64,000 bases of DNA from Nitrosopumilus ureiphilus (lineage in GTDB: Archaea > Thermoproteota > Nitrososphaeria > Nitrososphaerales > Nitrosopumilaceae), in the NCBI RefSeq assembly GCF_013407185.1, contig NZ_CP026995.1, positions 1,509,913 through 1,573,912 on the forward strand. The letters are read 5' to 3'. Under the pieces are notes generated by a model. That model saw nothing but the letters and a program-made list of their open reading frames with translations. It did not search any database and had not been told where the DNA came from. Each line of letters starts with the position of its first letter. Position 1 is the stretch's first letter. Of this stretch, positions 46,871 through 57,000 are shown in pieces. The position numbers were made by a program, and so were the translations under genes.

Positions 46871-48643
46871 ATGACGGAGCATCAACTTGGAAAATGGGAT
46901 CTATCAGAATTGGCAAAAGATCCAAAAAGTCCCGCATTTCAAAAACAGATTCAGGAATTAGAAAAACAGTCTAAAAAGTTTGAAAAAATAAAATCCAAAT
47001 TAGATCCCAAAATACCATCTGAGAAATTTATGAATATTTTACATCAGGTAGAAGAAATCTCTGAGAAGATGAGCATGATTGGAGGGTACGCATCTTTGTC
47101 ATATTCCTCAGACACACAATCAGATGAGGCAACATCACTTATGACAAAAATGTCAAAATTAGGTTCTGAGATATCAAACAAGATATTATTTTTTGATTTG
47201 TGGTGGAAAACACAAGTTGATGATAAAAATGCAAAAAGGCTTATGAAAAATGCCGGAGAGGTTACAGAATATCTCTCTCACAAGAGACTATTTGCAAAAT
47301 ATGCTCTCAGTGAACCCGAAGAGAGAATAATCAACACCCTAGATGTAACTGGAGTATCTGCACTTGTAAAACTCTATGACAAGATAACAAACGCGTACGA
47401 GTATAAAATGAAGATAGGAAATAAAACAAAAAAGATGACAAGAGAAGAACTTACAAATTATGTTCGAAGCACAAATTCAAAAGTTCGTGAAACTGCCTAC
47501 AAAACAATTCTTACAAAATATACTGAAAACAAGGGGGTAATTGGAGAAATATACCAAAATATTGTTCTCAATTGGAGAGATGAGGGTATCGAGATTAGAG
47601 GATACAAATCCCCAATATCTATGAGAAACATTGGAAACGATGTAGATGATAAAACTATAGAGTCTCTTCTTTCAGTGTGTAGAAAAAATTCCCCAGTATT
47701 TCAAAAATTCTTTATTCAAAAAGCAAAGATGCTGAAAATGAAAAAATTGAGAAGATATGATTTGTACGCACCAGCAGCAGCAAACATCAAAGAAAAAAAT
47801 TATTCATACAACAATTCTGTAAAACTAGTTTTTGAGTCTCTAGGAAAATTCAGTGAAACATTAGAAGAATTTGCAAGAAAAGTATTCAATGAGAATCACA
47901 TTGATTCATCAGTAAGACAAGGAAAAAGAGACGGAGCATTTTGCAGTACTCTTACTCCAAAAATCACACCATATGTTCTAGTAAACTTTACAGGAAAGTC
48001 AAGGGATGTCTTTACTTTAGCTCATGAATTAGGCCATGCAGTTCACAGTCAAGCTGCGCAAGACAGATCAATTCTTGTTCAAGATGCCCCATTGCCCCTA
48101 GCAGAGACTGCATCCACATTTTCAGAATTGCTCCTATATGATAATTTGTCAGACAAAATTTCAGATAACGAGAAAAAGATCATGTTGTCTGAAAAAATAG
48201 ATGATCTTTATGCAACAATTCTCAGACAATCATTTTTTACAATTTTTGAAGTAGATGCTCATGAGCAGATTGGAAAAGGAACTACTGTTGATGAAATTTC
48301 AAAGACATATCTGAAAAATCTCAAAGAGCAATTTGGAAATTCAGTGAATCTTTCAGAAGACTTTGCAATAGAGTGGAGTTGTATTCCACACTTTTATCAT
48401 ACACCGTTTTACTGCTATGCATATTCTTTTGGAAATTTACTTGCATTGTCTCTATTTCAAAGATACAAGAAGGAAGGAGAGGACTTTGTTCCATCATATA
48501 TTGAAATTCTTGCTGCAGGTGGTTCTAAGAAACCAGAGAAACTCCTCTTAGAGCATGGCTTTGATATAAGATCTCCAAAGTTTTGGCAAGAAGGATTTGA
48601 TTATGTTAGGGAACAAGTTAGAACATTATCATCATTAAATTAG
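46871..48643 (+). CDS. pepF: Oligoendopeptidase F-type M3 metallopeptidase
   Basis: 590 residues from ATG 46871. Zinc site HELGHAVH (~385-392), with the third ligand Glu in the ETASTFSELLLYD helix (~420), characteristic of M3B oligoendopeptidase F. Long helical N-terminal part (..LEKQSKKFEKIKSKLDPK) encloses the channel; ends CIPHFYHTPFYCYAYSFGNLLALSL as usual. Cytosolic peptide degradation. Single gene; GC-rich hairpin after its stop. Confidence 0.95.
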   Translation: MTEHQLGKWDLSELAKDPKSPAFQKQIQELEKQSKKFEKIKSKLDPKIPSEKFMNILHQVEEISEKMSMIGGYASLSYSSDTQSDEATSLMTKMSKLGSEISNKILFFDLWWKTQVDDKNAKRLMKNAGEVTEYLSHKRLFAKYALSEPEERIINTLDVTGVSALVKLYDKITNAYEYKMKIGNKTKKMTREELTNYVRSTNSKVRETAYKTILTKYTENKGVIGEIYQNIVLNWRDEGIEIRGYKSPISMRNIGNDVDDKTIESLLSVCRKNSPVFQKFFIQKAKMLKMKKLRRYDLYAPAAANIKEKNYSYNNSVKLVFESLGKFSETLEEFARKVFNENHIDSSVRQGKRDGAFCSTLTPKITPYVLVNFTGKSRDVFTLAHELGHAVHSQAAQDRSILVQDAPLPLAETASTFSELLLYDNLSDKISDNEKKIMLSEKIDDLYATILRQSFFTIFEVDAHEQIGKGTTVDEISKTYLKNLKEQFGNSVNLSEDFAIEWSCIPHFYHTPFYCYAYSFGNLLALSLFQRYKKEGEDFVPSYIEILAAGGSKKPEKLLLEHGFDIRSPKFWQEGFDYVREQVRTLSSLN

Positions 48644-48659
48644 ATTTTAAATTAATGGG

Positions 48660-48688
48660 GCCGGCAGTCCAACGCATGGACTGCCGGC
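48660..48688. other. Perfect 11-bp GC-rich hairpin
   Basis: GCCGGCAGTCC - AACGCAT - GGACTGCCGGC, 17 bases after the pepF stop. Followed by TTGTTCCCC, which can extend pairing with GGG in front. Unusually GC-rich for this genome. May terminate pepF and the convergent membrane gene, or be an attachment or transposon-end hairpin. Confidence 0.55.
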
Positions 48689-48762
48689 TTGTTCCCCGAA
48701 CGGTTTGAATTCGATGTCATCCTACAAAAAATGACAATCTGATTTAAATGTTTGAAGTTATT

Positions 48763-49329
48763 TTAGGCCCAATTTTTTGGTTTAATTTTCCTAATAGTGC
48801 CAGCAAGAATGCCAATAGTAAATCCTAATTGATAAAGAAAATACAAAAGAACTTCAAATGTACTAGGAGTAAGATCTGTGAATCTACTCAAACCAGTCAG
48901 TAGAAGTAAAAGAACGCTGGAAAATAAAACAAAAATTTTTGCCACTCCACTAAGATTTGTAAATTTCAAAAGAACAAATGTCATCACAGTAACAGAAATT
49001 GCCAAGATGGTAAGAAATCCAGTATTCATTCCAAAAATCAAAAATAGTGATGAAGCAATCTCACCAGTACTTGCTGCAGGTAAATTGAAGAGATCAATTT
49101 TTTCAGGAGATGCAAATCTAGGAACACTCAAAATGGCATTTGCTAAAAACAAAAAAAACAGTGTTACAGATACTGTCTTTAGATGGTTTTGAAGACGTGG
49201 GAATCGTACAAGAATAGAGCGTCCAAGAATTATTCCTTGAATAAGACCAATGCCAAAAACTGCCAATATTGCAATTAGTTGTGTTATAGGATCATTGAAT
49301 GTCTCAATAAGAAAAGGAATTAGTGCCAT
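48763..49329 (-). CDS. Polytopic membrane protein, unknown
   Basis: 188 residues with about six hydrophobic segments (ITQLIAILAVFGIGLIQGIIL, TVSVTLFFLFLANAIL, GFLTILAISVTVMTFVLL, IFVLFSSVLLLLLTGL, YQLGFTIGILAG). No catalytic residues or named domain. Monocistronic. Confidence 0.65.
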   Translation of the reverse strand: MALIPFLIETFNDPITQLIAILAVFGIGLIQGIILGRSILVRFPRLQNHLKTVSVTLFFLFLANAILSVPRFASPEKIDLFNLPAASTGEIASSLFLIFGMNTGFLTILAISVTVMTFVLLKFTNLSGVAKIFVLFSSVLLLLLTGLSRFTDLTPSTFEVLLYFLYQLGFTIGILAGTIRKIKPKNWA

Positions 49330-49387
49330 TACCAGTTAGATTATTGTAATAATGAGAATATTATCTAACGGATATACTATTTTCGTG

Positions 49388-49685
49388 AACTTACCAATGA
49401 CTAAAGTCAATTGGCTTCTTCCTGCTTCAACGACCGAGTTTCTGATCTCCACAGGCGTGCATTCCTACGGTTCCCGCAGTAGTATGTCTGAACACAATCC
49501 ATTTTCGGCTTTACGTAACAAATGGTGCATGTTCATATTATTGATACGACCGTATTTGCCTAACTCTAACATGTTATTAATTACACATGTATTGGATTTG
49601 AATATTTGATTGTGTTTTGTTTTGAGTTGTGGTGTGTTCGCTTTCCCAACCCTAAAGGGTGTGGGTTTTTCCGCACGCATCTGTA
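49388..49685 (-). mobile_element. IS605-derived non-autonomous element
   Basis: On the minus strand, the left end at ~49685-49640 has hairpin CCCACACCCTTTAGGGTTGGG; the right end at ~49414-49394 has GTCAATTGG/CCAATGAC around TTTA, the omega-RNA hairpin, then GTTCACG. Between them only the tail of tnpB (..GMHACGDQKLGR) can be guessed. Total ~300 bp, i.e. a MITE-like derivative. The plus-strand frames here are chance. Confidence 0.6.
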
Positions 49686-49760
49686 AAAATCATCTAATTA
49701 TGATGTTTTAGTGTGCAAAATAGGAGTAAATTTTATAATTTCCTTACTATTTGGAACACC

Positions 49761-50918
49761 ATGCAAAAATTAATTTTTTTATTTGTTTTAGTTGCATTAA
49801 TTGGAATTTCAGCAAATTATGCATATTCACAAGAAATGAGTCTTGCAACTTTTCAAGAATCAGCTCAAATAGTTGTAGACAATAGCATATCCCAAAATGT
49901 AACGGCGTCAATAACATTGCAAAGTACAAGTATTCAAGAGATTAAAATTCCAGCAGAATTAGAACAAGAAATAAGAGAAGATAAGAGAATAAAGGCAATA
50001 ATTTTGACTAATCAAGATCAATGCGTTCTAGGAGTAGTAGATCAATCATGCATTATGATAAATGTTGCAAGAAATCCAGAAGATAAAGGAATCATAGCAA
50101 TTCAAGGATCTACAAAAGAGATTGCGCAATTATACATAGAGGATATTAATCGAGTATTTGATACAGATGCAAAATTTCATTCAATTTTCATTCATACTGA
50201 TGATGAATCAAATAGAGCATTTGAAACTTCAGGAATTATTTCTGGAAAGGGCATGATTTCAGCAGTATACACTATGACTCAAGAAGATACCAATTCAATG
50301 TATGAAAAAATTTCAGCAATTTTAATTCCAAAAGTAATTAGAGATTCAGGAGGATTTTATGAGGCTGCAAAGAATCTATCATCTCACGAAAATGCAAAGA
50401 TGACATTTTCTTTAATTCCACTTGAATCAAAATCACTTTTGCAGTTAAGATTATCAGTAAATTATCCAAATACGGCATCAAAGATTTCGGAAATTAGCCC
50501 ACTAGAATTTCTAAAAGTAGAGAACCTAAATAGATCAGACTATTTTTCATCTGGGTTTTATCCTCTAAATTCCATAATTCAGGTAGTAGTTTTATCTCCT
50601 GAAAATACCAAAGTTTCAGATGTTAGAGGAAACATCATCCCAACACAAATAATTGATAATGAAAATATTCCAACAGACATTACAGAGAAAGGATGGGTTT
50701 TTGATCCACAAGAAGGACAAAGGATTCAAGGAAAATATATTTTTGGCAAAGATACAACAGTTAACAAAAAAGAATTAGAGTTTTCACTTGGCGGCAAACA
50801 ATTACAAACCAAGGAACCAGAAAAAACAGAATTCGATGAATCAATCATTGTTGTAATCATCATCGCCAGTGTTGCAATTGCTGCTGCAATGTTCTATCTT
50901 AAAGGCTATAGAAAATAA
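49761..50918 (+). CDS. Secreted, C-terminally anchored protein
   Basis: 385 residues from ATG 49761: signal peptide MQKLIFLFVLVALIGISANYAYS, a large mixed alpha/beta outside part, and a C-terminal membrane helix (IIVVIIIASVAIAAAMFYL) with a Lys/Arg stop-transfer. A QCVLGVVDQSCIMI pair of Cys and repeated KIS/NLS segments; the family is common in thaumarchaea but unnamed. Tail-to-tail with pdaD. Confidence 0.65.
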   Translation: MQKLIFLFVLVALIGISANYAYSQEMSLATFQESAQIVVDNSISQNVTASITLQSTSIQEIKIPAELEQEIREDKRIKAIILTNQDQCVLGVVDQSCIMINVARNPEDKGIIAIQGSTKEIAQLYIEDINRVFDTDAKFHSIFIHTDDESNRAFETSGIISGKGMISAVYTMTQEDTNSMYEKISAILIPKVIRDSGGFYEAAKNLSSHENAKMTFSLIPLESKSLLQLRLSVNYPNTASKISEISPLEFLKVENLNRSDYFSSGFYPLNSIIQVVVLSPENTKVSDVRGNIIPTQIIDNENIPTDITEKGWVFDPQEGQRIQGKYIFGKDTTVNKKELEFSLGGKQLQTKEPEKTEFDESIIVVIIIASVAIAAAMFYLKGYRK

Positions 50919-51482
50919 TTACAACAAGAGAACAGCTGCTGCAAATACAGTAGTCCATTTTCCATCTTTATCACCTTTTGTGGACTGGGTGATATTTTTT
51001 GTATGATAAATTTTACCTGAAATAGACCACTGTTGTCTTTTTTCATCCCAGTTTTTGTCAACATCAAATGGAATTCCTAAGGAAGATGCCAACATTTGGG
51101 CTGCAATGTCTTCAGCATAATCACCAGCTTGAGTCTCATTTTGACCAAAAGATTCGTATTCAGAGAGATACCCATATCTGCTATTATCCTTTGGTAGTGC
51201 AATACCTACAGAAGCTGCACACATCCTATATGGCTCTCGAGTCTGATTCTTTGAATAAATTGTAAATAATATCTGCCCAGGGCTAATTTGCTTGAGACCT
51301 TCTTTTCTTGAAATCAATTTTGCTTTAGGTGGAAATATACTTGAAATCAGTACAAGGTTGGTTCCAGCAATTCCTGCATCCCTTAATGCATATTCAAAAC
51401 TTGTTAGTCTATCTTCATGTACTCCTTTTCCTTTTGTAAGAAATAATTTTTTAGCAACTAAATCAAGCATTTCTGAATTCAT
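50919..51482 (-). CDS. pdaD: Pyruvoyl-dependent arginine decarboxylase
   Basis: 187 residues. Converts arginine to agmatine, the first step of polyamine synthesis. Self-cleaves to expose a pyruvoyl group at the Ser of NLVLISSIFPP (~43-53). Other family marks: LTKGKGVHEDRLTSFEYALRDAGI, GQILFTIYSKNQTREPYRMCAASVGIALP and EYESFGQNETQAGDYAEDIA. Ends 1 base from the convergent gene. Confidence 0.95.
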   Translation of the reverse strand: MNSEMLDLVAKKLFLTKGKGVHEDRLTSFEYALRDAGIAGTNLVLISSIFPPKAKLISRKEGLKQISPGQILFTIYSKNQTREPYRMCAASVGIALPKDNSRYGYLSEYESFGQNETQAGDYAEDIAAQMLASSLGIPFDVDKNWDEKRQQWSISGKIYHTKNITQSTKGDKDGKWTTVFAAAVLLL

Positions 51483-51560
51483 GAAAGATAGTTATTATTT
51501 ATACTTTAATTGAGACAGAAAATTTTTAAAATCAATATAAAAAATTCCCAAACTCTTTGT

Positions 51561-51788
51561 CTAATCGCCTTTTCTTTTCTTCTTTCTTTTATCAGGGGAT
51601 TTTTGGATTTGCGTCAAAAAGATGAATGTAAAAAATGCCCCTAAACCAACATTGATGACGCCCATAAAAGTAAGCATCATGGTCATTGAAGGAGGTGCAA
51701 CAGACAATCCAATTATAATTCCCATCACTCCGGTGGCATAAAACAGCATCATCAAAACCTTAACCCTTGTTGGTTCAATGTATCTCAT
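51561..51788 (-). CDS. Small membrane protein, two helices
   Basis: 75 residues from ATG 51788 (MRYIEPTRVKVL). Two membrane helices (MMLFYATGVMGIIIGLSV, MTMMLTFMGVINVGLGAFFTFIFL) and a Lys/Arg-rich cytoplasmic tail (DKRKKKRKGD). No function known. Confidence 0.6.
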   Translation of the reverse strand: MRYIEPTRVKVLMMLFYATGVMGIIIGLSVAPPSMTMMLTFMGVINVGLGAFFTFIFLTQIQKSPDKRKKKRKGD

Positions 51789-51873
51789 AAGAGGTATCAA
51801 AATACGACATTATTATAAACTGATGTTCTGTCGGGTTATCAAGACCCATAAATAATACAGGTGAGAATAATAG

Positions 51874-52107
51874 TTGTTGAGAGCCACAAAGTCAATCAAA
51901 CAAAAAATCCCACATAACAATGATCTTGATTCCATGATGAGTGTATTCACAAAGATGATAAACCAATCAATAAAGATTGGATTAAAAAACAACTGCTCGA
52001 CTTTGAAACGATTATCAACACTGGCATACTATGACTTGGATTCGCAAGGACTGGTTACATCCTACAAACTAAACGCAGTGTCTCAGGCATGCGGAATTTT
52101 ATCAAGA
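51874..52107 (+). pseudogene. tnpB: TnpB, N-terminal fragment
   Basis: From TTG 51874: SIKQKIPHNNDLDSMMSVFTKMINQSIKIGLKNNCSTLKRLSTLAYYDLDSQGLVTSYKLNAVSQACGILSRR matches the N-terminal helical part of RNA-guided TnpB nucleases. It is cut at ~52107 by the inverted right end of another element; the RuvC core is missing. Its C-terminus resumes at 52383. Confidence 0.65.
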
Positions 52108-52380
52108 CGTGAACTACCACTCGCTAAAGCTCGTGGCTTTCTGCTTCCTTGACCTCATCGAGATCTCTACAAGCGTTACTTCCCGCAATTCCTACAGTAG
52201 TTTTTGATTGAATATGTTCAATCCTTTTTGCAAAATGTTAATGCTTGCATTGTAATCCCTGTCTATGACCAAATTGCATTTGTCACATTTGTGAATTCTT
52301 GTAGCTAATCTCTTTGGAACCATGCTGCCACACCTTGAACAATTTATGGTTGTATTTCTTGCCGGAACTTTGACTGGCAT
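52108..52380 (-). pseudogene. tnpB: TnpB C-terminal fragment with omega-RNA end of a second element
   Basis: Coding part 52192-52380 reads PARNTTINCSRCGSMV..HKCDKCNLVIDRDYNASINILQKGL, i.e. the CxxC/CxxC zinc ribbon and the DRD-x-NAS RuvC-III acid of TnpB. Downstream (52108-52191, minus strand) is the right end with hairpin CCACGAGC/GCGAGTGG around TTTA and GTTCAC before the join, where the guide would begin. The 5' part of this tnpB is gone. Confidence 0.65.
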
Positions 52381-52382
52381 TA

Positions 52383-52680
52383 TTGGATGGCATTCCAGTT
52401 GTCTTTGTTGACCCAAAACGCACAAGCAAGTTGTGTCCAATATGCGGAAACAGAATCCAAGAGTACAGGCAAAACAGACGTAAGTTATTGTGCACTGATT
52501 GTGGCAAGAGTATGGACAGGGATGTAGTTGCATCCATGAATATTGCTCACAAGGCGTGGTCTAGGTTTAACATGCTAGAGATGATACAGGTGAAGCGAAG
52601 CATTCTGCTTTTGAGGAATCAATGTCGGAATCCAGCTATGATGATGTGGTAATCCGAATAGTCGATGTATCAAAGTCAGG
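52383..52680 (+). pseudogene. tnpB: TnpB, C-terminal fragment of the interrupted gene
   Basis: VVFVDPKRTSKLCPICGNRIQEY..KLLCTDCGKSMDRDVVASMNIAHKAWSRF has the zinc ribbon and DRD-x-x-AS RuvC-III site. A frameshift near 52590 separates it from a TnpB-like tail (..DVSKSGSR*). Together with the fragment at 51874 about 230 middle residues are lacking. Confidence 0.65.
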
Positions 52681-52765
52681 GTCTCGATAATCCGACAGAA
52701 CCTAGAATAGTTTATCGAACAATCTTGGTAACATTTTAAACCTGAAAAATTTCATTTTACTTTGT

Positions 52766-52840
52766 GCCAATGTAGCTCAGCCTGGTTAGAGCAGCTGATT
52801 TGTAATCAGCAGGTCGTGGGTTCGGATCCCGTCATTGGCT
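52766..52840 (+). tRNA. tRNA-Thr(TGT)
   Basis: Acceptor GCCAATG/CATTGGC, D-arm GCTC...GAGC, anticodon stem GCTGA/TCAGC with loop TTTGTAA (anticodon TGT), T-arm GTGGG-TTCGGAT-CCCGT, discriminator T, then CCA encoded at 52841-52843. No intron. Confidence 0.95.
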
Positions 52841-52882
52841 CCACCTTTTGTGTTTAAAGCCCATAACTTACGTAGATATTTC

Positions 52883-53020
52883 ATGAATACAAAACAGGTT
52901 CAGAGAAATGAGATTGTAATTCATGATTTTACAAAGAAAGTAACCAGAAACTTTCTAGCCAAACTATTTGATGAGAGATTTCAAGCAAAAAAGAGTACAA
53001 AATATGAATGTGGGAGATAA
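52883..53020 (+). CDS. Small basic protein
   Basis: 45 residues from ATG 52883: MNTKQVQRNEIVIHDFTKKVTRNFLAKLFDERFQAKKSTKYECGR. Helical, basic; maybe DNA-associated. No family recognised. Its 3' end overlaps the next frame by 17 bases. Confidence 0.4.
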   Translation: MNTKQVQRNEIVIHDFTKKVTRNFLAKLFDERFQAKKSTKYECGR

Positions 53021-53171
53021 AAAATATCAAAGAACAGAATATCTATTTGATTTCAAGATAGTTCAGAAGTTTGTTCGGAAATACAATATTGAACTTCCAA
53101 TTGATAGTGTAATTTTAAGTGGTGGAGATGGTAGAAGTGGTGGAGATGGTAGAAGTGGTGAAACTAGATGA
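53004..53171 (+). CDS. Small protein with an 18-nt tandem repeat
   Basis: 55 residues from ATG 53004: MNVGDKKYQRTEYLFDFKIVQKFVRKYNIELPIDSVILSGGDGRSGGDGRSGETR. The end has GGDGRS twice, from a perfect direct repeat GGTGGAGATGGTAGAAGT. Unknown function. Confidence 0.4.
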   Translation: MNVGDKKYQRTEYLFDFKIVQKFVRKYNIELPIDSVILSGGDGRSGGDGRSGETR

Positions 53172-53242
53172 TCACATAGACCACGAATACCACTTGAAAT
53201 TAATGAAAAGTTATTCAATTTTAGGTGTAAAAGGAGAAGAAA

Positions 53243-53452
53243 GTGAGCAGTTCATGTAATGGTACATGTACACAATTAGGAAAGGAGTATTTTGGAATTC
53301 CAAAGTATTATCTAGGATACAAATATTGCACAATGTGTGGATACTCAATAATATGTGAAGTTATTTCGTGTCCATGTTGTAATAGCATACTAAGAAAAAA
53401 ACCCCAGACACAAAACAAAATTTCATGTTTAAAACCTAGAGCATACATCTGA
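53243..53452 (+). CDS. Cys-rich zinc-ribbon microprotein (CNGIC/CPCC family)
   Basis: 69 residues from GTG 53243: SSSCNGTCTQLG.., then YCTMCGYSIICEVISCPCCNSILRKKP. Third member of the family in the window (others 22097, 40657), on the plus strand here. Zinc binding likely; role unknown. Upstream of two small helical genes. Confidence 0.7.
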   Translation: MSSSCNGTCTQLGKEYFGIPKYYLGYKYCTMCGYSIICEVISCPCCNSILRKKPQTQNKISCLKPRAYI

Positions 53453-53457
53453 ATGTA

Positions 53458-53649
53458 TTGAGCAACAATTCTGAGATAAATTCTAATCATTCGAATCTAC
53501 TAATAGCTCAGAAACGGTATCAACAAAAAAATGCTTATGATATTGTTACAAGACAACATGTATTAGAAGAGATAATCTTTAATCTAAAATCAGAAAACAT
53601 CTCTGTTACTCCAAAGATAGTATTGGAGAAAATGAAAGAGAAAGGATAA
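53458..53649 (+). CDS. Small helical protein, uncertain
   Basis: 63 residues from TTG 53458: polar start, then helix QQKNAYDIVTRQHVLEEIIFNLKSENISVTPKIVLEKMKEKG, which looks HTH-like but cannot be assigned. Starts 5 bases after the zinc-ribbon stop, so may share its transcript. Confidence 0.4.
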   Translation: MSNNSEINSNHSNLLIAQKRYQQKNAYDIVTRQHVLEEIIFNLKSENISVTPKIVLEKMKEKG

Positions 53650-53704
53650 AGATAGATCAACACTGTATAGAGATAGATTATCTATTAACCAACGAAACAG
53701 TTTC

Positions 53705-53992
53705 TTGAGAGATTCGTCTGAATCAAATTATTCAAACTACATTGAAATAATGTGGGAGGATATTGAATTAGTGAAACAAGGTTCACAAGAGATGTTTCTT
53801 ACTGCAAAAAGTGATTCTATCAAAAACAATGTAGGAAAACTAATTTTAGAAACAGTAAGAACCAAAATCGAGCTACTCAGCAGTAAAGCATTGGATATTT
53901 CTGTGGAATTACTAGGAAAGAAATTACGTCAATTTCGTGATGAGAATCAAGACCTTAAACAACAACTTGGAAAATATCACGATTCAGAATAA
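53705..53992 (+). CDS. Helical protein, possibly coiled coil
   Basis: 95 residues from TTG 53705 (ATG 53750, MWEDIEL, is an alternative). All-helical with heptads at the end (KLRQFRDENQDLKQQLGKYHDSE). Soluble, unknown. Followed by the large secreted protein gene after ~100 bases. Confidence 0.45.
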   Translation: MRDSSESNYSNYIEIMWEDIELVKQGSQEMFLTAKSDSIKNNVGKLILETVRTKIELLSSKALDISVELLGKKLRQFRDENQDLKQQLGKYHDSE

Positions 53993-54090
53993 GATTTAGT
54001 GTTGAGATAGTATAGACCGCTTTTAAATATAGAAAATTTTTCCAAAATCACGCCTGATTTTACGCCTATGAGACTAAATATTATGAAATT

Positions 54091-57000
54091 ATGAAGTTTA
54101 GAATGAAGAATATTTTTTCAATTTCAATCATCCTTCTAATTGCATTTTCTTTTACAATATCAACCATATTACCTGCTGATGCTTTTGAGTTTAGTCCTCT
54201 TCCAATAGTGCACATGAAATCAATTCCAAATCAATCAGATTTTCTCAATAAAGATCAAAACTCCCTATTACCAAACACAATTCATTCAACTGAGATTAGA
54301 GACAATGGCAAAAAAGTAGACATCTACTTACTCTCAACAGGGACAAGAGCCGGTGACTCTATAGGAATATTTTATTTTGAAGATGATACTGAAAAACAGT
54401 TTGAGGATGGATATTATTTTACTGACCTCTTTGTAATGCATTTCAAATCCGAACTAGATGCAGAATTAGAATATGTAATTACATCACAACGTAACGACAA
54501 CAGCTGTGTAAAATCAATACCTCCAAACATCTCTGTAAGTTTTACACTTGATGGCGATTGTAGTGCAGGAGCTGTAATTACAAAACAAACGGAAAATGGA
54601 TGGGCAGCATATGTAAAGTTCTTTGTTGATTTTGAAAAGCCAACATATGATTCCCCATATTACATTCAATGGGCATATGTTGATGCAAAAGGTGTAGATG
54701 ATGATGGTTGGGACATTTCAAGTATTAGTTATTGGCCAAATAATTGGTTTTTTTATGGAACAGCATATCCAGTCCAAGAGGAAAATGTTTTAGTTAATGT
54801 CAATTTCGGAAGAATAGAAATCAATGATTTTTTACACATGCCAAATGAAATTCTAACTGAGAATTTATCTCAAAACAAGATAGATTGTGCAGACAATACC
54901 ATAGACGTTGTAACAGATAGTAATGAAGAAGGATACACAAAAAATGATGTTGCAAGAATTACTGCCAAAATTAATTCAATTGAAAAAAATATCAAAGTGT
55001 ATCTGACAATTTATGATCAACAAGATAATCGCGTATTGAAAAAAAGTACAACATTTACTGATTCGGATCCTATTTTCTTAGTAGATTTGGGTTCATTTGA
55101 ACGGGGAGTCTACAAAGCAGCAGTGGAATTTGGAATAAATGGACCAAAGGACCAAGTGTTGTTTAAGGTAGACATTATAGAAATACTCAAGCAAAAGGAG
55201 CCTAATCAGTGTAATCTGTACCTGCTATATGATGAAAACAAGAGTTCTTTGATTATTTTTGGTCAGGTGTATGATCCATCTGGGTCATCCATAGACGGAA
55301 TTGACATTTTTGTAGATAGAAAAGGTGATGGATTTACAGAATTAACTGAAGATGACATTAGACTCTACATATCAAAAAATAATTTTGGTGGAGAAAAGAT
55401 TTCAGCATCCCAAGGGTGGTCTAATGATGATAAATATCGAGAAAAAGGAAATGCAAGAATTAACAAATTAGGAGACGGATATGAGATTTATGCAGAAGTT
55501 CCTGTTGTAACCAAAAATTTCAAAATTGCAATAGAGCAAAGCGACAATACTTTTTATGAATTCAAAAAAAGCAGATTCCCCCCAAATAGTTTCTCAACTG
55601 CCCCTCAGACATGGGCTACAGTAAATTTTGTAGATAAAACTCCTATCAAATATGCTGCATCTAATTGGTCTCCTGATGAAGTAGTGGTCACTCAATCAAT
55701 TGATCTAAATTTGATTTTAGTGGGGGATCAATGGACAGAAAATCAAAAGAAAGAAATTCAAAGTAAATTAAGCAAATCAATTATTCCAATTACCAATAGT
55801 GAACTTCATCTAACTGGTGCAAAATATCTTTATCAGTATGACTTTGTTTCAGCTTCAGATGATTTTTCTAATGGATTATTCAATCTAATGAAAAAAGAAT
55901 CAGAAAGAATTAATCCGTTTTATGGAGAAAATGAATATAATAATCCATGGGGTTTAGCTAGTTGGGTTAAAACAAATCATACAGAATGGACAAGTCCATC
56001 TCAACAAAGATTTGAAATAGATTACAATCTTGTTGATGCAAATAAGGTAGAGGAGTATATTTTCAATGAATTAATTTCAAAGAATCCGTCGTTTCATTTG
56101 CCTCATTCTGTAAATTTGGTATTCATTGCAGATGATATGGACAAAATTGACTTTTTACACAATTACAAATTGCAGTCTATAGATGCATCAACTAAACAAT
56201 ATCATAAAGCGGTTGGATTGATGGGATATGGTGGAAATTACAATACTTACTTTTTTGATCTTTATGCAGCGCCATGGGATGATTTTCAGGGACTTCCAGG
56301 ACATTATGATCAAAATCTAATTAATGAATATACAAATTTTCATGACTTTACAGATGAAAAGGATAGGAATCAGTTATTCGTAAATTACATCAATAATGCA
56401 ACTGCTCTGTTAGTCACACCATCTTACGTCTATCCGCCAGTTTACAAGACCAATTATCTAATAGATTTAGTAATTGTTACAGAGCCTAGTTCTACTGCAA
56501 ACAATGTACTAATTGATCATTTCATTGATAAAGAAAAAATCATCTCAGAATTAGAACAATTAATTCCACACTCATCATGGGAACTTAATTTCTCTCTAGA
56601 GAGACTAAACAGCAGAGATCTTGCTACAGATGTTAAAGACCTGTTAAACTCTGCAAACAAAGTTCCTGCATTTTCTGAAGATTTTGGTCCCATCGTTTCA
56701 ATATTAAATGAAGAGAATGTTTCACGGGAATTGATTAGTTGGGCATCTACTAGAGAATCCTCAAATTTTAAGGACTTTAAGAATGTGGCAAATTCTCAAT
56801 GGACCATCCCTGTATTGGTAGTAATTGGAGAAGGGGATAATCAATGGTACATTGGAAACTATGGAACAGTAGGATTAGCAGCTGCACATCCAGATGATGC
56901 AAATCAGCCTTGTTGTGCCATTGCAATTTCAAATGACAAAACAGTTTGGGAGGAAGGTTATGGATTATCTGATCTTGTAATTCATGAAGTTGGTCATGTG

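Follow-up and report, generated by a model that had tools for sequence, protein, structure and literature searches.

A tnpB gene between terminal inverted repeats

A 64,000-nucleotide stretch of the Nitrosopumilus ureiphilus genome (GCF_013407185.1, contig NZ_CP026995.1, positions 1,509,913 to 1,573,912; hereafter the window) holds, at 51824-52702, the interrupted remains of an element in which a tnpB gene lies between terminal inverted repeats (TIRs). We interpret this outer element, with good confidence, as a dead copy of a non-autonomous archaeal transposon whose single gene is tnpB and whose TIRs are IS6-like, working by the mechanism proposed below. Its parts, together with the piece of a second TnpB element that interrupts it, are as follows (TAM, target-adjacent motif):

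51813..51815, plus strand: TTA, TAM-like motif standing 8 bp before the left end; relatives have it in their uninterrupted site too
51816..51823, plus strand: TAAACTGA, presumed surviving left copy of an 8-bp target duplication, the right copy being lost
51824..51847, plus strand: left TIR, IS6-like, outermost G now T
51874..52109, plus strand: outer TnpB, N-terminal part
52110..52385, minus strand: inverted 3' end of an IS605-type TnpB element (zinc ribbon and right end GTAGTTCA), right junction uncertain by ~5 bp
52383..52652, plus strand: outer TnpB, C-terminal part (RuvC end and zinc ribbon), frameshifted
52532..52702, plus strand: omega-RNA-like scaffold overlapping both the 3' end of tnpB and the right TIR (76.5 bits and E=1.2e-16 with covariance model R1, whose training set does not include the window)
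52679..52702, minus strand: right TIR, whose CAGAACC end is the predicted scaffold/guide junction

The inverted repeats of 23 bp listed in the initial annotation of this stretch are present (51825-51847 and 52679-52701, 21/23 bases matching), and none of 100 dinucleotide-shuffled windows gave a repeat match at 3 mismatches. The right repeat reaches one base further (52702, C), ending in GAACC, and the outermost base on the left (51824) is T where most relatives have G. Between the repeats, the N-terminal part of the outer TnpB matches residues 1-85 of an intact relative at 55%, and the C-terminal part, starting at ~52383, carries a zinc ribbon (PF07282, E=3.5e-16). Separating the two is the 3' end of a minus-strand TnpB, with a zinc ribbon of its own (PF07282, E=3e-13) followed by the IS605-type right end. 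Relatives of this inner piece at 79% occur at two other loci of the same genome, which together with shorter right-end matches and the piece itself makes 18 matches.

That annotation had described the arrangement as nested TnpB elements. A plus-strand TnpB is indeed split by the inverted 3' end of another, but the nesting is not clean: ~214 residues of the outer protein (~80-293 by eye, against an intact 397-aa relative) are gone. An IS605-type insertion was therefore probably followed by a deletion, which probably took the 5' part of the insert along with the middle of the outer gene. Further decay is visible as a 1-nt loss after SRFN, a gap in the covariance-model alignment that frameshifts the C-terminal part, and as the loss of ~37 nt adjoining the right TIR (right flank compared by eye with the best-matching relative, L393). 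An Rfam scan of 48000-56000 gave only a tRNA above threshold. A second decayed copy of the outer type stands elsewhere in this genome (L114 1043-1640, C1 near 798542); it keeps a right TIR and a TnpB C-terminal end and is cut short beside an IS605-type right end.

Intact relatives and target-site duplications

The first pattern search found, in another species of the genus, two ends separated by 1261 bp, an interval taken up by an intact tnpB. At L005/L115 the element spans 25-1285 and its 397-aa TnpB 80-1273, and intact relatives are generally ~1.25 kb long, consist mostly of tnpB and have TIRs of 22-24 bp. Their ends coincide with the repeats of the window copy; intact relatives with ends elsewhere were what the initial annotation had named as a refutation. 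Within the N. ureiphilus genome, all ten matches of GGTTCTGTSAAGTTATRGRGA (3 mismatches), a pattern built from TnpB-element ends, fall at TnpB elements or their remnants: eight form four pairs of 1251-1268 bp, in one of which tnpB has stops, and two are single ends beside remnants.

Scanning 84,980 species' genomes with the TnpB alignment yielded 78 loci in records of Thaumarchaeota/Nitrososphaerota, Bathyarchaeota, Crenarchaeota/Thermoproteota and the Asgard group, plus a few weak matches in haloarchaea and one in a bacterial metagenome-assembled genome. In a model search, 66 of the class's 400 genomes examined gave a match at E<=1e-30. The same alignment run against viral contigs returned 41 pattern matches and no confirmed relative, and a phage search with the element DNA no match.

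The protein itself is a TnpB by family (L115, NCBIfam guided_TnpB, 136.6 bits vs. a cut-off of 100), and the RuvC D/E/D residues are kept in 38 of the 41 relatives with an open frame of at least 330 aa (out of 52 with good ends). TldR-type nuclease-dead regulators have lost their RuvC residues, and the retention of these residues ruled out this identity. Among 34 rows that combine good ends with a long frame, 33 have their stop codon at a distance of -2 to 79 nt from the right end of the element. For the TnpBs of L115, L112 and L190 the second-best NCBIfam match is Cas12f2, at 77-110 bits far below its cut-off of 450, and this archaeal group may for that reason interest those concerned with the origin of Cas12f. 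One further TIR-TnpB (L159 1464-3404, G041:C103) is 647 aa long and carries an in-frame LAGLIDADG homing-endonuclease domain (PF14528, E=2e-8) at the zinc ribbon, which makes it a nuclease gene within a nuclease gene, whether as an intein or as another insert.

To define duplications, element ends were picked by similarity to GGTTCTG and by TIR match only, the duplication having no part in the choice. Candidate end pairs were obtained at 138 distinct loci out of 176 TnpB places, and the flanking 8 bp were duplicated at 8/8 in 25 and at 7/8 in 7; cross-paired flanks reached at least 7/8 in 0.075% of cases and 8/8 in 0/20000. A second end finder, which took the right end from the RNA model and scored TIR and target-site duplication (TSD) jointly, accepted 39/136 at 7 or more, and 0/136 when supplied with another element's right flank. 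The duplication that the earlier reading had proposed to look for is thus found in many relatives, but not at the window copy, because the right duplication and its neighbouring sequence have been lost beside the right TIR.

The insertion point of the window copy could nonetheless be placed from uninterrupted sites. Relatives of the 79-aa gene that stands to the left of the element occur in 78/95 genomes, and the best 30 loci were read, the window's own included. At 26 of the 29 others, this gene and a tRNA-Thr are adjacent with a gap of 102-124 bp, so that no element stands there; of the remaining three, two lack the tRNA in the stretch and one holds an unrelated ~1.1 kb stretch. Since the site reads TTATTATAAACTGACGGT or nearly so in most of these relatives, the window insertion sits after TTA and TAAACTGA.

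Two other kinds of sequence came up beside these elements. At L100 4133-5902 (G107:C87) a TIR pair, GGTACTGTGTAGTTATMGG, encloses small open reading frames with no transposase or TnpB recognised, and is perhaps another kind of non-autonomous element. GTTCTGTTGCATGATA and GTTCTGATGCATTATA recur across many genomes of the genus, as a rule once per genome, and probably represent conserved sequence of genes, not element ends.

Autonomous IS6-type transposons with similar ends

Genes for DDE transposases of the IS240/IS6 type (PF13610) occur in 24/95 genomes of the genus. A TIR pair (entry condition 17/22) encloses 38 of the 63 transposase places read, a few of which are counted twice under two loci, and the TSD reaches at least 7/8 in 29 of these 38. 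N. ureiphilus has an autonomous element of its own (L153 4110-6470), with a TIR of 24/24, CATTGTGT on both sides and a transposase scoring 54.8 bits (vs. 27) for PF13610. Closer TIR matches to the TnpB elements are found in other genomes: an autonomous element at L345 and the TnpB element at L188 have TIRs that are identical over 22 bases. Over the inner 15 bases, 33/46 TnpB elements match some autonomous TIR at 12/15 or better, as opposed to 0.1% of shuffled sequences, and the TIR starts with GG in both kinds of element. Given TIRs similar to those of autonomous IS6-type transposons, the TnpB elements are probably non-autonomous IS6-like elements moved in trans.

Three residues, D203, D262 and E297, are invariant among six aligned partner transposases, and we read them as a candidate DDE triad. 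An unbiased inverted-repeat search in 1.1-kb flanks of PF13610 transposases found little because many autonomous elements are 2-7 kb long, and wider stretches together with the GGTTCTG motif did better. Shared ends in intact relatives, many exact 8-bp duplications and similar TIRs on autonomous IS6-type transposons uphold one of the two options raised in the initial annotation, that of a TnpB element carried by a TIR-type transposon. A casposon or a recombination site was ruled out by the 8-bp TSD and the DDE partners.

Several autonomous elements carry other genes. Between TIRs with TSDs, L147 3344-7916 holds type I methylase and specificity subunits and L099 1318-4485 a NurA gene; L149 1952-5306 holds an N6/N4 methylase along with Mrr and iREase matches below cut-off, and L148 3707-6933 a weak methylase match below cut-off. 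To the left of L147, L373, L379 and L376, exactly 8 bp lead to another outward CAGAACC-like end, as if these elements had inserted beside an earlier element or shared its TIR.

A covarying fold that includes the right TIR

Many TnpBs have in common a C-terminal stretch of the form DEAVKGN...PILRVDGSKL, which runs almost up to the right TIR; other elements have a frame that stops sooner, and there the corresponding DNA is non-coding. That it is kept even there suggested conservation as RNA. RNAalifold, applied to 32 aligned 165-nt 3' ends, predicted an internal helix of 6 bp, a second helix of 6 bp between internal sequence after AAG and the inner part of the right TIR, and a third of 4 bp between GUUC of a conserved AGGUUC and GAAC of the TIR terminus. 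By eye AGGUUC lies in a hairpin loop; this hairpin was left out of the count because its columns align differently between clades. Compensatory changes affect 12 of 16 pairs, paired cells amount to 92.6% (71.1% when shuffled) and covariation to 0.623 (0.230 when shuffled, 0/500; 0.07-0.15 in slid versions), counts that describe the better-aligning members, since the omitted rows (seven element ends left off the reference list, seven of its 39 left out of the alignment of 32 and 12 loci excluded from a scripted fold of 34) mostly belong to the window's clade or to poorly aligning forms. In the helix joining loop and terminus, three sequences change both sides of one pair (UA to CG), along with GAGCC TIRs.

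The covariance model R1 matches 8 of the 11 sources given to it, one of them, L115, being an element already used in training, and, with training members and overlapping genomes included, 72/78 and 90/90 loci of relatives. It found no match at E<=1 at three loci holding relatives of the inner IS605-type piece, of which only L161 was read. Judging from this fold, the right TIR appears to be part of the predicted guide-RNA scaffold. The GUUC/GAAC pairing resembles the TnpB pseudoknot of ISDra2 and IS607, which the cited section of PMC10711439 describes as five nucleotides flanking the guide that pair with an apical loop.

A TAM-like motif on the tnpB 5' side

Directly upstream of the left (tnpB 5') duplication, 25 of 32 TnpB elements have NTA or NTG (TTG 9, TTA 8, ATA 5, others 3). 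In mirrored position on the right it occurs in 9/32 (p=1.3e-4 vs. left), and 28 autonomous elements have it 7 times on the left and 6 on the right, or on 13/56 sides (p=6e-7 vs. TnpB left); these p-values are descriptive, because some of the elements had been inspected before the motif was defined. The only independent count comes from 16 further TnpB elements with good TIRs and no duplication, 12 of which have the motif. A guide that starts with the duplication and continues into the right flank would have its TAM at this place, and the asymmetry fits an active RNA-guided nuclease with such a guide. For Sulfolobus TnpB elements, the relevant part of PMC10640517 gives AT-rich TAMs at the left end, with TTTAA, and TTTAT for solo tnpB.

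Proposed mechanism and competing explanations

The TIRs, the 8-bp TSDs, the autonomous elements with similar TIRs, the kept RuvC residues, the covarying fold that takes in the right TIR and the left-only motif are all read from the DNA directly. From these parts we infer the following life cycle. An IS6-type DDE transposase would bind the TIRs in trans and insert the element with an 8-bp duplication. A transcript that continues past the 3' end of tnpB, across the right TIR and into the flank would then give an omega RNA with the duplication plus right flank as its guide. TnpB and this RNA would cut the empty site where an NTR TAM (mostly TTA or TTG) precedes it, and repair from the copy holding the element would restore or spread it. 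Insertions lacking a TAM would gain nothing and be lost, leaving the motif bias on the left. Cutting and repair as retention and gene drive have been described for IS200/605 TnpB (preprint PMC11870625, in the part cited). Because the left junction keeps both the TAM and 8 guide-matching bases, self-sparing would have to rest on mismatch past position 8. In the window copy, the middle of such an element was replaced by an IS605-type TnpB 3' end, its frame was shifted and the DNA beside its right end was deleted.

The other option of the initial annotation, chance inverted repeats or hairpin flanks, can be set aside with near certainty: nothing was found in its favour, no shuffled window reproduced the repeats, and relatives share the same ends with TSDs. 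A TnpB of ordinary IS605 type (IS1341-like) could instead be hitch-hiking cargo between unrelated TIRs, with no link between TIR and guide RNA. Such TnpB elements do occur in this genome, and the autonomous IS6-like elements carry cargo as varied as methylases and NurA. However, the closeness of stop codon and right end in nearly all rows, the covariation of the right TIR with internal RNA and the silence of R1 at the loci related to the inner IS605-type piece all speak against it, and we hold it to be very unlikely.

The left motif could also be a target preference of the transposase and not a TAM of TnpB. Target preferences are common among transposases, and the autonomous set is itself biased at one position, so that this explanation, though unlikely, keeps some weight. 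Against it, autonomous elements with similar TIRs and TSDs, which have no TnpB, show the motif on few of their sides, and among TnpB elements it stands at the 5' side of tnpB, the side required of a TAM. Alternatively, TnpB may guide the transposase, an RNA-guided complex recruiting the IS6-type enzyme to TAM sites, so that the bias would arise at insertion and not through later selection. Motif bias and the coupling of TIR to scaffold are both compatible with this, and CRISPR-associated transposons show that coupling of nuclease and transposase can evolve. The RuvC residues are kept, though, as a cutting enzyme needs, and a guide taken from the last site would send insertion back to that site only. 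We regard such guidance as improbable. The same low probability attaches to its fullest form, DDE transposition guided by RNA in archaea, with TnpB both cutting and steering and with a single sequence serving as transposase end, guide-RNA scaffold and guide boundary.

A non-autonomous IS6-like transposon carrying an active TnpB, our preferred reading, has several observations weighing on the other side. The window copy itself is dead and has no TSD, and its clade fits the TIR helix less well (four non-standard pairs in L115, one in the window). No duplication is recognisable at 106 of the 138 TnpB loci, likely through decay, contig ends and missed left ends. Among the transposase places, 25/63 lack a TIR pair, and chance may account for some of the 9 pairs whose TSD is below 7. 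Movement in trans by an IS6-type transposase, though probable, is argued from TIR similarity only, and the TIR of L153 agrees with the right TIR of the window in 17/24 bases by eye. The IS6 label is provisional, because the L153 transposase passes the NCBIfam IS6 cut-off of 125 (126.8 bits), that of L150 falls under it (96.2 bits), and the placement of archaeal members is disputed, one paper holding, in the section cited, that they do not belong in the IS6 family (PMC6807381).

The motif has its own exceptions, beyond the descriptive standing of its p-values. It is absent from 7/32 TnpB elements, and the 38 elements accepted by the second finder, 27 of which have it, are mostly the same ones. 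The autonomous set shows T (mirrored) at the third base outside the right duplication in 23/28, a bias that comes partly from shared insertion sites (L099, L377 and L383 have the same right flank). Finally, rows with and without a recognised TIR interleave on a quick tree of 109 TnpBs (28 changes of the TIR label; shuffled mean 30.7, with 91/500 shuffles as low), on which no separate non-TIR sister group could be named; given this interleaving, a missing TIR looks like decay or an overlooked end.

Relation to known systems

With the TnpB elements of IS200/IS605 and IS607, IS1341-type included, the present ones share the guided_TnpB family, RuvC, the zinc ribbon, a predicted RNA scaffold at the right end, a guide presumably supplied by the right flank and, at the left, a TAM-like motif. 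They differ in having TIRs, an 8-bp TSD and IS6-type partners, and in a motif that stands 8 bp off the element with the duplication in between; the part of PMC3627910 used here states that TnpB-only elements of the IS605, IS607 and IS1341 types have no TIRs or TSDs. By its ends the element is thus no member of IS605/IS607, since TIRs and a TSD are present and the likely partner is of DDE type, in agreement with the initial annotation, which had found the repeats unexpected for these types. Going by sequence features, it would work like a TnpB element, and the most fitting class for it is that of non-autonomous IS6-like transposons, with TnpB on board.

As in the IS6 family, archaeal members included, the partners have a transposase provisionally assigned to the DDE_Tnp_IS240/IS6 type, a TIR starting with GG and an 8-bp TSD. 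Unlike that family, their transposases are ~370 aa long (the IS6 domain being residues 132-332 of L153), several of them carry cargo, and the TnpB elements have no transposase; a review of the family names, in the passage cited, one passenger-bearing member, ISDsp3 (PMC7986276). The nearest parallel lies in eukaryotic DDE-type transposons, where Fanzor1 and Fanzor2* proteins, homologues of TnpB, show TIR/TSD capture, once with no other gene present, and the TIR is predicted to belong to the guide-RNA scaffold (PMC10711439, relevant section). Among these captures, one of IS4 type, with 18-bp TIRs and 8-bp TSDs, appears in the cited portion of PMC3627910. In the present elements the host is archaeal and the protein TnpB, not Fanzor; the pseudoknot pairing is kept, whereas that section calls it absent in Fanzor1; and the TSD apparently lies within the guide, the motif being upstream of it, whereas for Fanzor1/2* the same section places the TSD in the scaffold.

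Among open-licence full texts (ISfinder, subscription journals and most preprints lying outside this scope), TnpB elements with IS6-like ends were not found in print. The elements look like a prokaryotic case of TnpB capture by TIR transposons in which the adaptation is visible, the TIR forming part of the predicted scaffold and covarying with it. In IS605 elements the TAM is also the preferred site of the transposase (preprint PMC11870625, as far as the cited part goes). Here TAM and transposase target are separated, as similar ends are found on elements carrying TnpB and on elements lacking it, and only the former show an enrichment of the motif. This would allow measuring whether nuclease homing alone shapes where TnpB elements survive.
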